From Lactobacillaceae bacterium (GTDB taxonomy: Bacteria; Bacillota; Bacilli; Lactobacillales; Lactobacillaceae): a DNA stretch of 35,125 nt. The stretch covers positions 1 to 35,125 of the forward strand of contig JAISIV010000027.1 of the NCBI GenBank assembly GCA_031261865.1, in the 5' to 3' direction. The notes beneath the pieces were generated by a model. The model was given only the letters and a program-made list of their open reading frames with translations, was not told the origin of the DNA and made no database searches. The translations under genes and the position numbers were made by a program. Shown here one piece after another: positions 7,319 to 34,670 of the stretch. Each line of letters starts with the position of its first letter. Within the stretch, counting starts at the first letter, position 1.

Positions 7319-7448
7319 TACGAATACCTAAAGGTATTCGAAATTTATTATTGACAAACTGCCGTAGAGCTACTTATTTTACGTATACATCAAGGTATCT
7401 GAAATTTATTGCCGCTAAACTGTCGTTTAGCTCCTTGTTTTTCGTATA
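7319..7448 (+). repeat. 61-bp-period tandem promoter-like repeat, array A
   Basis: CGAATA (7321), CGTATA (7382) and CGTATA (7443) are exactly 61 bp apart; intervening sequence is related to array B at ~19990-20172. Confidence 0.8.
7422..7448 (+). promoter_or_regulatory. Putative alternative-sigma (ComX/SigH-like) promoter: GTCGTT-N15-CGTATA
   Basis: GTCGTT 7422-7427, 15 nt, CGTATA 7443-7448, 9 nt to ATG 7458. Confidence 0.6.
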
Positions 7449-7457
7449 AAGAGGTAT

Positions 7458-7994
7458 ATGAATACTTCTAATATGATCCCGATTGCCATATCGTTGGTCG
7501 CAATTCTAATAAGTACGGTAAATTCATTCTTAAATTTCCGCCAAAATCGGTTTGCCAATCTGGCGTTAAGGGGTGAGAAGACAAACGAGGCAATTGACTT
7601 ATTTTTCAAAGAAGTGACCCCACTGTACAACCAATATTTAAAAAATGAATCGAAACTGACTGAGCAAGTAATTAAAAAGTTGCCAGAGGGTATGGATTCC
7701 GATAGTCCTGAACGCCTGAAGGTTGTTCTTGATGTTGTTAACAATGACTTGATTCCACAAAGGGCTCAAATTCTAAATAATTTAGAAAATGTTTCATCAA
7801 TTGCAAACAACCAGCCAATATTTCTTCGTAATCTAGAAGAGTCAATTGGGAACGATTTCGGAGAAATATATCAAAAATTTAATTACGTTTTTAGTGCTAC
7901 TTTAAGGAAAAAATTCGGTTCGATTCGAAAATTGGCGGACAAATTTTCACTGTATAATTTAGGAGATGATAAAGATGACCAAAGAACAAGCTAA
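7458..7994 (+). CDS. Uncharacterised protein with N-terminal TM segment and helical remainder
   Basis: MNTSNMIPIAISLVAILISTVNSFLNFRQ... N-terminal hydrophobic helix; long ORF. Confidence 0.75.
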   Translation: MNTSNMIPIAISLVAILISTVNSFLNFRQNRFANLALRGEKTNEAIDLFFKEVTPLYNQYLKNESKLTEQVIKKLPEGMDSDSPERLKVVLDVVNNDLIPQRAQILNNLENVSSIANNQPIFLRNLEESIGNDFGEIYQKFNYVFSATLRKKFGSIRKLADKFSLYNLGDDKDDQRTS

Positions 7995-19489: not shown

Positions 19490-19993
19490 ATGCCACAAAT
19501 AAAGTTAAAACAACCTGTATCACCAAATAATGAAGTAAAAATTCAGAAGAGTTACCTCACGCTAATTTTTAGTTTGATTATGTTTTTACCGTTCAATGGA
19601 ATTTTTATATTATTGGTCTTCGTAAGTTTTAAACAACCCGCTGCAATTTTTCTCGTGCTAGGTGCCTTGTTATTCGTATTACTTATCGATTTAACGGTTT
19701 GGGGATTTTTGATTTCGGGGATGACAGCCTTTAAATATTCGGACGACGGAATTACGATTTACAATCTCAAAAAAGTATATTTGTCCTGGAAAGATATCAA
19801 GGATGTCGAACTTAAAAGAGTCGGAACCCAGACGTTTATTTATGTTTACCCAGTTGATACCTCTTTAAAAAAGAAAGCATATTCAGTAGCTCTTTCAACG
19901 ACACAAGTAAATTTGTCGAATGAGGATATTTTTCTTGGTTTCAAGACAAGGATGAATGACATTCATGGGAAATCGATGAGCAGTCATACCTAA
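19490..19993 (+). CDS. Uncharacterised membrane protein, two TM helices plus PH-like soluble part
   Basis: Two hydrophobic segments then DDGITIYNLKKVYLSWKDIKDVELKRVG. Confidence 0.7.
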   Translation: MPQIKLKQPVSPNNEVKIQKSYLTLIFSLIMFLPFNGIFILLVFVSFKQPAAIFLVLGALLFVLLIDLTVWGFLISGMTAFKYSDDGITIYNLKKVYLSWKDIKDVELKRVGTQTFIYVYPVDTSLKKKAYSVALSTTQVNLSNEDIFLGFKTRMNDIHGKSMSSHT

Positions 19994-20172
19994 AGACGTC
20001 CAAAATTTATTATCGTCAAACTGTCGTTCGGCTCGTTATTTTGCGTATGTCTAAAGGTATCTGAAATTTATTATCGTCAAACTGTCGTTTAACTCCGTAA
20101 TGTTCGTATACACGCAGTGCATCCGCGAAACATAGTCACAAAACTGTCGTTTTGTTCCTTATTTATCGTATA
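19990..20172 (+). repeat. 61-62-bp-period tandem promoter-like repeat, array B
   Basis: Three copies of GTCGTT-N15-CGTAT at 20023, 20084 and 20146; AAATTTATTATCGTCAAACTGTCGTT shared by two units and related to array A. Confidence 0.85.
20146..20172 (+). promoter_or_regulatory. Putative alternative-sigma (ComX/SigH-like) promoter: GTCGTT-N15-CGTATA
   Basis: GTCGTT 20146-20151, 15 nt, CGTATA 20167-20172, 7 nt to ATG 20180. Confidence 0.6.
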
Positions 20173-20179
20173 AAGAAGT

Positions 20180-21538
20180 ATGGCTAATTTAACTGACTAT
20201 TCTAATACTGATTTATATATGGCAGAAAGTTCTTATACTTCTAGACCTTATAGTTTTGACAAAACTAATAAAAGACCGCCCGCTCAAGCCCAAAAGTCTC
20301 AATGGTACAAGCAAGAAAAAATAACGGACAACAAAACTGGTTACACTGCTTACTTTTTAACCAATAATCAAAACCCAAATCTGGCAACCCAGGCTTACTA
20401 TGTTGTCCGAGGTAGTGACGCTTTTGATGCTCAAAATCCTGATTGGACTGGTAATAATATTCCTTTTGCTTTAGCTGATAAGCAAGTAAAACAATCTAAA
20501 AACTTCATCAAAGATGTCCAAACAAAAATGTCTCGATACACGAACATTACCGCTTGGAATTTTACCGGTCACAGTTTAGCGACGATGGTTGTCACGACCG
20601 GTTTAAGTAATTTATCCCAAGACCAAGCAACTAAAGTTCAAGCGGCCACTTTGTTTAATGGTCCAGATGTAACCAATTCGCTCAACGTACATCAACTAAA
20701 CAATTTAAAGGACTCCGGTTTGAACGACAAAATAACTTATTACCTGAATCCGGATGACATGGTCAGCGTCTTAAATCGTTCTCAGTCTGAACAAATAGGA
20801 CATGTAAATTGGATTGACACTAAGTCGGATTACGGAACGATGGATATTGCCTCTTCACATGACTTTTATGAATATCAAGTTGTCAATGGCAAAATCAAAA
20901 CAGTTGAAAATAGCTTAGAACTGAAAACTTATATCTACGCTCAAGATGCTCTTTATCAACAGCTGATTAATCATGTTGGCAACCTCAAACTATCACCCAA
21001 AAAAGTAAAAAAGATTATTGAAACACTTGATGGAGAAAAATATGTGTCAGGAAAAATTAATTACCTGGTAAAAGAGTTTGGAAATAAAATTGATATTCAT
21101 TTGTTCTTGAAGTTTTATATGAGGTATAAAGACGCAAAAGAAATGATCGGACTGTCTAACCGAATCAACTCTTTGACTCTTCAATTGGAACACAGTGACG
21201 ATATTAAGTTAAGCGAAATTTTAGTCTCTAAAATAGAACAATACATCGGGAATTTTCTCGATAAAATTACCTTTGATACTGAAATGATCCATGTTAATAC
21301 TAGAAATAAATTACAAAAATTAATCAACGAGGCGAATATGGAACTATCAATCGCTGGATCAACCACTCAGTTCGACTATCGGTATTTTTATTCTGAGCCA
21401 CAAGAAAAAATTAACCAAAATAGTGTTTCGGTATACAAAAAGGACATGGAACAAACGCTCCACATCCTAACTAATCACGTATTTGAAATTTATAAAATTG
21501 ATGTCAATTACGCTAATAATTCATTTAAGCCAGATTAA
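20180..21538 (+). CDS. Class 3 lipase-like alpha/beta hydrolase with ~200-aa uncharacterised C-terminal region
   Basis: GHSLA nucleophile elbow, LNPDDMVS acid motif, SHDFYEY candidate His; no signal peptide. Confidence 0.75.
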   Translation: MANLTDYSNTDLYMAESSYTSRPYSFDKTNKRPPAQAQKSQWYKQEKITDNKTGYTAYFLTNNQNPNLATQAYYVVRGSDAFDAQNPDWTGNNIPFALADKQVKQSKNFIKDVQTKMSRYTNITAWNFTGHSLATMVVTTGLSNLSQDQATKVQAATLFNGPDVTNSLNVHQLNNLKDSGLNDKITYYLNPDDMVSVLNRSQSEQIGHVNWIDTKSDYGTMDIASSHDFYEYQVVNGKIKTVENSLELKTYIYAQDALYQQLINHVGNLKLSPKKVKKIIETLDGEKYVSGKINYLVKEFGNKIDIHLFLKFYMRYKDAKEMIGLSNRINSLTLQLEHSDDIKLSEILVSKIEQYIGNFLDKITFDTEMIHVNTRNKLQKLINEANMELSIAGSTTQFDYRYFYSEPQEKINQNSVSVYKKDMEQTLHILTNHVFEIYKIDVNYANNSFKPD

Positions 21539-29272: not shown

Positions 29273-30093
29273 ATAAAGTTCTTACAATTGAACACCCCAA
29301 AAAAGCCATGGTTATCTCAGATATCCATGGTTTTTGGCAAGCTCTACAAAAAATAACTGAATTACCCGAATACCATAATCCTGAATATCAATTAATATTC
29401 TTAGGAGATTACACCGACGGTGGTGCATCTAATCCGCGTGACCCTAAAAAAGTTATTGATTTTATTACCGACGAAGTATTGAATCATGATGCATTACTCG
29501 TTCATGGAAACCATGACGACATGTTGTTAGGAACCGCCAACAATCAGATGGATAAGTTCGACAACTGGTCGTATAACGGTCGTTCTCAAACTTTGCGGGA
29601 ACTGGGAATTCCCGACAGCGATGATATTGAAGTAGTTAGCAGTTATCTAAAAGATCTTCTACCTGATTATTTGAATGTTTTGAATAACGCTCCATATTTA
29701 ATCGAGGATCAAAATCGTATCTTTGTTCACGCTGGAATTAATTGGTATCTTTCCGATTACAAAAAGACGACCCGAGAAGATATGGTGTGGTTAAGGCAGG
29801 AATATCTTTTTGTTACCAATGTTCCTTTGGGTTTTGCGACACCAGGGCATCCAGTGCCAGCAAAACTAATTCATCAAAATCAAACAGACAAGGTTATTTT
29901 CACTGGACACACACCTGCATCTTTAATCACTGGAGATGCGGCTGGTTTTCCTGCAAAATTGGAAAGTGTCCGTTATGGCCTTCCTAGATACGTAATCGAT
30001 GGTGGTTCACATGGAACGCCAAATGCCGGTTTAAACGTGGTGATTGTCGACGCTGACGGCAGCATTATCCGAACTGAAAAATTATTTGGCTAA
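29269..30093 (+). CDS. Metallophosphoesterase (serine/threonine phosphatase-like), TTG start
   Basis: ISDIHGFWQAL, FLGDYTDGG, LVHGNHDDM, FTGHTPA motifs. Confidence 0.9.
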   Translation: MNKVLTIEHPKKAMVISDIHGFWQALQKITELPEYHNPEYQLIFLGDYTDGGASNPRDPKKVIDFITDEVLNHDALLVHGNHDDMLLGTANNQMDKFDNWSYNGRSQTLRELGIPDSDDIEVVSSYLKDLLPDYLNVLNNAPYLIEDQNRIFVHAGINWYLSDYKKTTREDMVWLRQEYLFVTNVPLGFATPGHPVPAKLIHQNQTDKVIFTGHTPASLITGDAAGFPAKLESVRYGLPRYVIDGGSHGTPNAGLNVVIVDADGSIIRTEKLFG

Positions 30094-30709
30094 TCATAGC
30101 TCCATAAGTTAGAAACGGTATAAAAGCCGTTTTCTTATTACCCGAAAATAACGAATAAGCAATCGTTGCAATGCAAGCTAGGATTACTGCAAGTAAAAAG
30201 TAGTGAACACTTAGCATTGATAAAAGTACCAACAATACCGGGATATCACCTTCGCCTAATTGCGCCGTGAGAATAACTGAAAAATATAAAAAGATGAACA
30301 GACTTACTAAAAATACAGGTGAGACATCTCTTAAATTTTCCAAAAATAAAAACGGTAACGGCAATAAAATCCACGAACTGCTTGTTTGATTAAAACTGTC
30401 TTCCTCGCTACAAAACAACAACAAGATGAAAACTAATAGCACGCGATAATCATCAACCGTCAAAAATAACATTCCATAAGCAAATTCGATGATTGGATAT
30501 TTGATTGCAATTCTCTGATGACAAATGGCGCATCTCCCGAAAGACATTAGCCAACCAAACACTGGTACTAATGAGATTGGTGCAATTGGCTGCCGGCAGT
30601 TGTCACAATACGAAAACCCACTTAAAGAAAGTCGTAAGTTTAGACGGTATGCCAAACACAATGTTGCAGAGGCCAAACTGGCACCTAAAATAAATAAAAA
30701 TATTCTCAT
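30065..30709 (-). CDS. comC: Type IV prepilin peptidase (ComC-like)
   Basis: CDNC...CAICHQRIAIKYPIIEFAYGMLF Zn/leader-peptidase domain and GEGDIP (GxGD) motif; MRIFLFILGASL start. Confidence 0.85.
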   Translation of the reverse strand: MRIFLFILGASLASATLCLAYRLNLRLSLSGFSYCDNCRQPIAPISLVPVFGWLMSFGRCAICHQRIAIKYPIIEFAYGMLFLTVDDYRVLLVFILLLFCSEEDSFNQTSSSWILLPLPFLFLENLRDVSPVFLVSLFIFLYFSVILTAQLGEGDIPVLLVLLSMLSVHYFLLAVILACIATIAYSLFSGNKKTAFIPFLTYGAMISQIIFQFG

Positions 30710-30716
30710 ACTTATT

Positions 30717-30743
30717 AATACGTAAAGCAGTCCGAGGAACGAC
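30717..30743 (-). promoter_or_regulatory. Putative comC alternative-sigma promoter: GTCGTT-N15-CGTATT
   Basis: Minus strand: GTCGTT 30743-30738, 15 nt, CGTATT 30722-30717, 7 nt to ATG 30709. Confidence 0.65.
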
Positions 30744-33799: not shown

Positions 33800-33901
33800 G
33801 CTTTACTACATAGTAAAGCAGTTATTTTGTTGACAAAACAAAAAATACCTGCTTTACTACATAGTAAAGCAGTTATTTTGTTGACAAAACAAAAAATACC
33901 T
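33800..33901. repeat. Perfect 51-bp tandem duplication (2 copies) upstream of the toxin-antitoxin operon
   Basis: GCTTTACTACATAGTAAAGCAGTTATTTTGTTGACAAAACAAAAAATACCT at 33800 and 33851; contains inverted repeat GCTTTACT-ACAT-AGTAAAGC and TTGACA. Confidence 0.95.
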
Positions 33902-33923: not shown

Positions 33924-34670
33924 ATGAGTGACGAGTCAAGAGGAGTGAGAATATCCTTTTCTGCGGTTAAAAATTGGGAAGAAGGCAAGTTACCTTATTC
34001 TGAAGAAGTTGTTGAATTTACTTGGTATAAAGGTTTGAGTTGGCAACAGAAACAAAAATCTTCAATCTCGATGCGAGAATCAATTGTTTTAAAAAAACCA
34101 GACGCGAAGGTTTTAGAGATATCGACAAAATCCGATAACTACGAATTTGCGCAGAAACTTAGTGCTATGAATTTGAAGGTTGATGGTCAAACATTAGAAA
34201 ATGTCTTTCAATCCGGAAAGGTGTTTGATGAGAAGAGAGGGCCAAATCTTGATTTATTAAAAACGTCACCTCAAAAAGCGAAACAGTTCAACAGAGGTTT
34301 AAATCCACATTTGAAGTATTTTCAATATAAAAATAAGAAATTTCCATTAGAACCTAAAACGATATTTTACGACTACTTGTATCTTAAGGCCCTTGTTCAA
34401 AATTCTAATATTGCAGAAAAATTGCTCGATTACGACGCGTTTACCGACATTGAGTTTAACCAAAAAATCGCTTACGATACAGTTAAAGGCCCATTCAATT
34501 CTCAGGCTCGAAGCGCCGCGATTTACGTTACTCTTCGAAAGGCGAAAATAACACCTAATGAAATACTCGACTTAATTAACTCTTCTACTGATCTGCAAAA
34601 ATTATATCCAGCAAAAAAAGAAGTTTCGGCAATTGAAAAACCTGACGTTCAATTGGGGTTGTTTTCGTGA
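33924..34670 (+). CDS. DarT1-associated NADAR-family antitoxin
   Basis: VEFTWYKGLSWQQKQKSI, LSAMNLKVDGQTLENVFQSGKVFDE, FPLEPKTIFYDYLYLKAL, LLDYDAFTDIEFN, QARSAAIYVTL match remembered features of the DarT1-associated NADAR family; SD taggag. Confidence 0.75.
   Translation: MSDESRGVRISFSAVKNWEEGKLPYSEEVVEFTWYKGLSWQQKQKSSISMRESIVLKKPDAKVLEISTKSDNYEFAQKLSAMNLKVDGQTLENVFQSGKVFDEKRGPNLDLLKTSPQKAKQFNRGLNPHLKYFQYKNKKFPLEPKTIFYDYLYLKALVQNSNIAEKLLDYDAFTDIEFNQKIAYDTVKGPFNSQARSAAIYVTLRKAKITPNEILDLINSSTDLQKLYPAKKEVSAIEKPDVQLGLFS

Follow-up and report, generated by a model that had tools for sequence, protein, structure and literature searches.

A lipase gene behind a triplicated competence-type promoter in a Lactobacillaceae genome that also carries a type VII secretion-like cluster with the same promoter type

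The DNA investigated here (35,125 nucleotides, contig JAISIV010000027.1 of assembly GCA_031261865.1 from a Lactobacillaceae bacterium; the whole stretch is called the window in the following) contains an intact gene encoding a class 3 lipase-like protein, which is preceded by three tandem copies of a putative competence promoter and adjoins, on its upstream side, the gene of a small membrane protein (Table 1). The same core element is found before a prepilin peptidase gene of the window and, in a second array (array A), before the gene of a protein with a single transmembrane (TM) segment; elsewhere in the genome it precedes a cluster resembling a type VII secretion system (T7SS), and it is this combination of lipase, promoter and secretion genes that concerns us. 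The genome to which the window belongs (G000; 1.23 Mb, 69% complete) was compared with its possibly Oenococcus-like genus, seven genomes altogether, comprising a second lipase-bearing member (G001, a metagenome-assembled genome, 65% complete) and five others, all of which are at least 98% complete.

The units upstream of the lipase gene are direct repeats of 59 nt (n = 3), spaced 61 and 62 nt apart, and their coordinates bear out what the preliminary description of this DNA, made from the sequence alone, had said of three copies of GTCGTT-N15-CGTAT. That the last core lies very close to the ATG at 20180 is likewise correct, the distance being 8 nt instead of the 7 nt given there. No sigma-70-like site was seen between the upstream gene and this ATG. 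Exact cores occur five times in the window (three before the lipase gene, one in array A and one on the minus strand before the prepilin peptidase gene), compared with a mean of 0.01 in 400 dinucleotide shuffles of the window. Within 207 kb of G000 14 exact cores were counted against about 0.09 expected, 11 of the 14 directly before a gene; this enrichment is partly a matter of selection because part of that DNA was chosen for containing motif matches, and the window alone agrees with it. Searching across G000 with a longer pattern and at most two mismatches gave 18 sites, versus three with a reversed control.

Exact cores precede comGA, comC, comFA-comFC (in two copies at a distance of 62 bp) and the recA region of G000. 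A gene for a ComX/SigH-like sigma factor of 185 aa, which has a weak Sigma70_r2 match, is also present in this genome, on contig C31 at the conserved rlmB locus, next to rlmB and mrnC. In Lactobacillus sakei, sigma-H activates the competence genes (PMC3364868). In other members of the genus, CGTA-type boxes stand at the same place before comGA and comFA; the -10 part is therefore genus-wide, and the GTCGTT part is peculiar to G000. Given these positions and the presence of the sigma factor gene, the element almost certainly represents a competence promoter, and the com-type assignment of the preliminary description is upheld. The distance between CGTAT and the start codon is 8-10 nt in nearly all cases (15 genes of G000 and G001, including those starting at 20180, 30709 and 7458 of the window), so that, should CGTAT be the -10 box, the transcripts would have no leader or hardly any. 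At several loci (contigs C76 and C122 of G000 and the window arrays) the near-identity extends beyond the hexamers to the 15-nt spacer (TAGCTCCTTGTTTT-like) and to about 30 nt upstream. The promoters of the recA region, a RelBE operon, comFA and open reading frame (ORF) 7458 have almost the same spacer, which looks as though copies of the unit had spread through the genome.

Turning to the protein, the motifs GHSLA, NPDDMVS and SHDFYEY are all present, the first being a GxSxG-type serine motif with Ala instead of Gly in the last position, and the 14 relatives compared all keep S132, D193 and H227. Residues 1-242 were modelled mostly with good confidence, and this model matches the class 3 lipase 4tgl (Z 14.8, root mean square deviation 4.6 over 208), the plant phospholipase A1 7x0c (Z 14.4) and the type VI secretion system (T6SS) lipase effector 9cys (Z 10.1). 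Fold match and invariant Ser-Asp-His triad together confirm the class 3 lipase-like domain, and the absence of a signal peptide, also noted previously, is confirmed as well, the 452 residues having no hydrophobic stretch able to serve as signal peptide or TM helix. Residues 246-448 are predicted to be all-helical at low confidence (predicted local distance difference test, pLDDT, about 45), and the C-terminus modelled on its own was also poor. Neither these C-terminal 210 or so residues nor the whole protein gave a significant match in Pfam, NCBIfam, PHROGs or PADLOC; for these collections the description of the C-terminus (about 200 aa) as belonging to no recognised family holds. No murein hydrolase family was recognised in the protein either. 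A phmmer search of the PDB with the single sequence returned nothing, and a profile returned class 3 lipases and cutinases; similarly, scanning the genome contigs gave nothing with the single sequence and only the genus mate G001 with the alignment of the pair. One short Lactococcus match among plasmids and four weak unannotated matches in phage records do not suggest a phage or plasmid origin.

The nearest relatives of the lipase are TslA-type lipases. Outside the genus the closest ones (in G141, G327 and G153) resemble it in the length of the C-terminus, where the alignment is colinear but statistically marginal. The loci of the relatives mostly encode a small membrane-anchored protein upstream and, in most of them, one or two small helical proteins downstream, the same arrangement as at the tslA locus (PMC10730906). 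TslA of Staphylococcus aureus, in which the domain order is reversed, has been verified as a phospholipase A toxin secreted by the T7SS; it harms cells only from the outside, and an immunity lipoprotein neutralises it (PMC10730906). With TslA and Tsl1 (S. aureus, Enterococcus, Listeria; PMC10730906) the window lipase shares an N-terminal class 3 domain, the Ser-Asp-His triad, the lack of a signal peptide and a T7SS in the host genome; its C-terminal region, helical in a low-confidence prediction, is a candidate for the helical LXG-like targeting domain of these proteins. It differs in standing alone, with neither downstream Tla1/Tla2 nor an upstream TilA-type gene, in its competence promoter and in the merely marginal C-terminal homology. 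The protein is thus very probably a relative of the TslA lipases; we stop short of calling it a member of the group, as neither partner nor immunity genes flank it.

The adjoining membrane protein encoded at 19490, which the preliminary description had pointed to in suggesting a search for an immunity protein, is a poor candidate for this role: G001, in which the gene upstream of the lipase is upp, has no ortholog, the genus yielded a single weak and broken match, the predicted two-TM layout places the soluble part inside the cell, and the protein has no lipobox-type Cys, although TslA-type loci would have the gene of an immunity lipoprotein or of a membrane-anchored Til-type protein at this place.

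Two kinds of T7SS locus were found in G000. On contig C50 lies a T7SSb in which EssC (1,317 bits) and EssB were recognised and further ORFs occupy the places of EsaB, EssA and EsaA, the canonical set except for EsxA, which would lie past the contig end; the competence motif is absent from the roughly 150 bp before esaA, which is all that the contig covers there. LXG-type substrate loci are present as well. The second, on contig C19, is a reduced cluster encoding a DUF669 single-stranded DNA (ssDNA)-binding protein (phrog_378, E 1.3e-19), a WXG100 protein, a YukD-like protein, an EssB pseudokinase region, an EssC-like protein of about 1,080 aa and a 78-aa protein. The WXG100 protein passed its family cut-off, and the EsaB-, EssB- and EssC-like ones fell below theirs. 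Exact GTCGTT-N15-CGTAT stands both before the first gene and before the EssC-like gene. Only between G000 and G001 is the EssC-like protein related over 808 aa; in 20 other genomes of the family the match is confined to the first ATPase domain. The ssDNA-binding gene of G003 lies behind the box unaccompanied by T7SS genes; most likely, therefore, the T7SS-like genes were inserted behind an existing competence gene. WXG100, YukD-like and EssC-like genes and the EssB pseudokinase region liken the cluster to T7SSb and the variants T7SSc-j (PMC11217815). It departs from these in the missing EsaA, EssA and EssB membrane portion, in its ssDNA-binding head gene and in its competence promoters; it was not matched to any described subtype and possibly constitutes an undescribed one.

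Lipase and T7SS-like cluster occur together in two of the seven genus genomes, G000 and G001, the five nearly complete members having neither the lipase nor WXG100. The two lipases are 35% identical. Of the four extended boxes found genome-wide in G001, three precede the lipase, the ssDNA-binding gene heading the cluster and the EssC-like gene; the comFA box of this genome matches them, and lipase and cluster keep its -10 box and start spacing. For the orthologous lipase locus, where lack of the promoter repeat had been set beforehand as a point against the proposal, the outcome is divided: -10 box and start geometry are conserved, the triple array and GTCGTT are not.

From the common promoter, the lipase fold with its triad, the relation to TslA-type lipases and the co-occurrence with a T7SS-like cluster we infer how sigma dependence, induction, export, killing target, immunity and a benefit for transformation might fit together. 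In competent cells, the ComX/SigH-like sigma factor would transcribe the lipase gene from its triplicated late-competence promoter, and promoters of the same type would drive the T7SS-like cluster (WXG100, EsaB-like, EssB-like, EssC-like). The helical C-terminus might target the lipase to the C19 machine or to the canonical T7SSb of the same strain, and the C19 machine might secrete on its own, borrow membrane parts of the T7SSb or serve another role. Once exported, the Ser-Asp-His lipase would hydrolyse the phospholipids of neighbours, and the membrane damage could free DNA for the ComG/ComF uptake machinery. We consider export by a T7SS probable, and give an even chance to the window gene encoding a competence-induced, T7SS-exported phospholipase toxin directed against neighbours. 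Neighbour killing by the lipase that feeds DNA uptake falls slightly short of this, and the fullest account, in which competence switches on a reduced T7SS of an undescribed subtype together with a secreted phospholipase toxin, so that neighbours are killed and their DNA is taken up in a Gram-positive counterpart of the competence-coupled T6SS of Vibrio, is held to be a little less likely again. A role in attacking neighbours had already been suggested in the preliminary description and is plausible; what that description had missed were the relation to TslA and the co-promoted T7SS-like cluster.

Several observations weigh against such an export toxin. No Tla1/Tla2-like partner genes follow the lipase directly, the next gene being a convergent one of the HAD type at 21535, and no recognisable TilA-like immunity gene lies beside it; the similarity of its C-terminus to TslA-type targeting domains is marginal and the C-terminal model poor. 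The C19 cluster, in which EsaA, EssA and the EssB membrane portion are missing, may be unable to secrete by itself, its co-occurrence with the lipase rests on two incomplete genomes, and the triple array with GTCGTT is not conserved in G001. Moreover, toxin-antitoxin operons carry the box, and the regulon therefore extends beyond DNA uptake.

Some of these points would suit a lipase that is induced in competence but acts inside the producer or on its own membrane, either remodelling phospholipids at the uptake machine or lysing some of the competent cells, with the T7SS-like cluster being co-regulated separately: a signal peptide is absent, neither a partner gene nor a clear immunity gene adjoins the lipase, and its C-terminal region is at most a candidate targeting domain. 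The nearest relatives of the enzyme, however, are TslA-type proteins in T7SS cassettes, TslA is harmful only once exported (PMC10730906), and within the genus the lipase is found together with the T7SS-like cluster, which makes own-cell action unlikely in our view. Alternatively, an ordinary T7SSb competition toxin may have gained its competence promoter through dispersal of the unit and have no part in DNA acquisition, as the near-identical spacers, the box-bearing toxin-antitoxin operons and the presence of a T7SSb in G000 would permit; the lipase ortholog of G001, in turn, has -10 box and start geometry though the long unit is absent there, and the link between lipase and promoter therefore predates the dispersal, leaving this explanation rather improbable. 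The toxin-antitoxin operons could also indicate that the repeated element is the site of another regulator or of a stress sigma factor that controls com genes as well. Against this stand the element before comGA, comFA, comC and the recA region, the CGTA-type boxes before comGA and comFA in other genus members, the ComX/SigH-like sigma gene and the sigma-H-driven competence of L. sakei (PMC3364868), so that we regard it as very improbable.

Other genes behind boxes of this type deserve mention. Toxin-antitoxin-like operons with exact or near boxes upstream include AbrB/MazE-type genes with Doc-, RelE- or MazF-like partners, HicAB and RelBE (Table 1). Four paralogous single-TM proteins of 167-179 aa belonging to no known family (window 7458-7994; L125:2393-2917; L021:1021-1560; L124:1053-1553) each have a box upstream (window, contigs C28, C8 and C144); most of the protein is predicted to be intracellular, and they may be immunity or uptake accessory proteins, being candidates only through their co-regulation. 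The box before recA directly precedes an ORF of 28 codons (L023:5009-5092, G000:C122), the end of which, VLVGQVLNATQYR, resembles the start of SSB; an ssb gene may have decayed here. In G001 the remaining extended box, the fourth, is found about 160 nt upstream of the gene of a 186-aa predicted secreted transglycosylase-like protein (L123:2054-2775, contig C26). Apart from these, the window contains two perfect tandem copies of 51 bp (33800-33901), followed after 22 bp by the gene of a DarT1-associated NADAR antitoxin (33924-34670; PF22397, E 4.5e-55); no DarT toxin was recognised in the rest of the window, nor did any Rfam family match in it.

Table 1. Coordinates of the lipase locus, its putative promoters and related features (window positions unless a genome and contig are named)
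Feature	Position	Strand	Basis or remark
Competence-type promoter unit, copy 1	19990..20048	+	Core GTCGTT-N15-CGTAT at 20023-20048
Competence-type promoter unit, copy 2	20051..20109	+	Core GTCGTT-N15-CGTAT at 20084-20109
Competence-type promoter unit, copy 3	20113..20171	+	Core 20146-20171; 8 nt from end to lipase start codon; extended box CGTATAAAGAAGTATG
Lipase gene, 452 aa, intact, probable relative of TslA-type T7SS lipases	20180..21538	+	Homologs; no signal peptide-like stretch
N-terminal class 3 lipase domain, residues 1-242	20180..20905	+	Invariant triad, model and fold match
Catalytic triad codons Ser132, Asp193, His227	20573-20575, 20756-20758, 20858-20860	+	Alignment
C-terminal helical region, residues 243-452, candidate T7SS targeting domain	20906..21535	+	Low-confidence helix prediction; marginal colinear similarity to TslA-type C-termini
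Membrane protein adjoining lipase, 167 aa, weak immunity candidate	19490..19993	+	No family found
Reduced T7SS-like cluster, ssDNA-binding gene at head	G000:C19:12624-17762 (L066) and G001:C63:911-5894 (L070)		Boxes before first and EssC-like genes
Prepilin peptidase gene (comC type), late competence gene	30065..30709	-	Peptidase_A24 N-terminal domain; start 8 nt past CGTAT
Competence-type promoter core before prepilin peptidase gene, one copy	30718..30743	-	Exact core
Array A, two promoter units, first with GCCGTA replacing GTCGTT	7328..7447	+	Repeat comparison
Single-TM protein of unknown function, 178 aa, behind array A	7458..7994	+	One of four paralogs behind such promoters
Box-bearing toxin-antitoxin-like loci, G000	C19 (8790-), C92 (1085-), C78 (814+), C6 (8204+), C32 (6786+), C76 (3480-)		Loci L066, L126, L127, L022, L025, L020

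Among known systems, the late competence (ComX/SigH) regulon of Lactobacillales resembles the present gene set in the promoter common to comGA, comFA, comC and the recA region and in the sigma gene at its usual locus. The set of G000 differs from it by adding the lipase, the T7SS-like cluster, toxin-antitoxin operons and the small single-TM family, and the -35-like element GTCGTT differs from the streptococcal com box. The streptococcal fratricins CbpD and LytF are secreted murein hydrolases; a competence-induced attack on neighbours, as proposed here, would be the point in common, whereas the window protein is a lipase and has no signal peptide. In Vibrio cholerae, a T6SS controlled by TfoX/QstR links competence to predation on neighbours (PMC6783263, PMC6237807), and in its logic this system comes nearest to the one proposed here. 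If our model is right, competence and contact killing would be turned on together in both cases. The analogy is a loose one, as machine (T7SS), regulator and phylum differ and the two are not homologous.

In the open-licence literature we found no report of a coupling between T7SS and competence; the paper on T7SS variants mentions neither competence nor ComX nor the Lactobacillaceae names looked for (PMC11217815), and a review of T7SSb-mediated competition mentions neither competence nor DNA uptake (PMC10765036). The triggers of antibacterial T7SS toxins are poorly understood. Should lipase and T7SS-like cluster be true late competence genes, T7SS killing would gain a defined trigger as well as a candidate benefit, the acquisition of genes, and this would suggest that Gram-positive bacteria came independently, and by way of another machine, to couple predation with DNA uptake.
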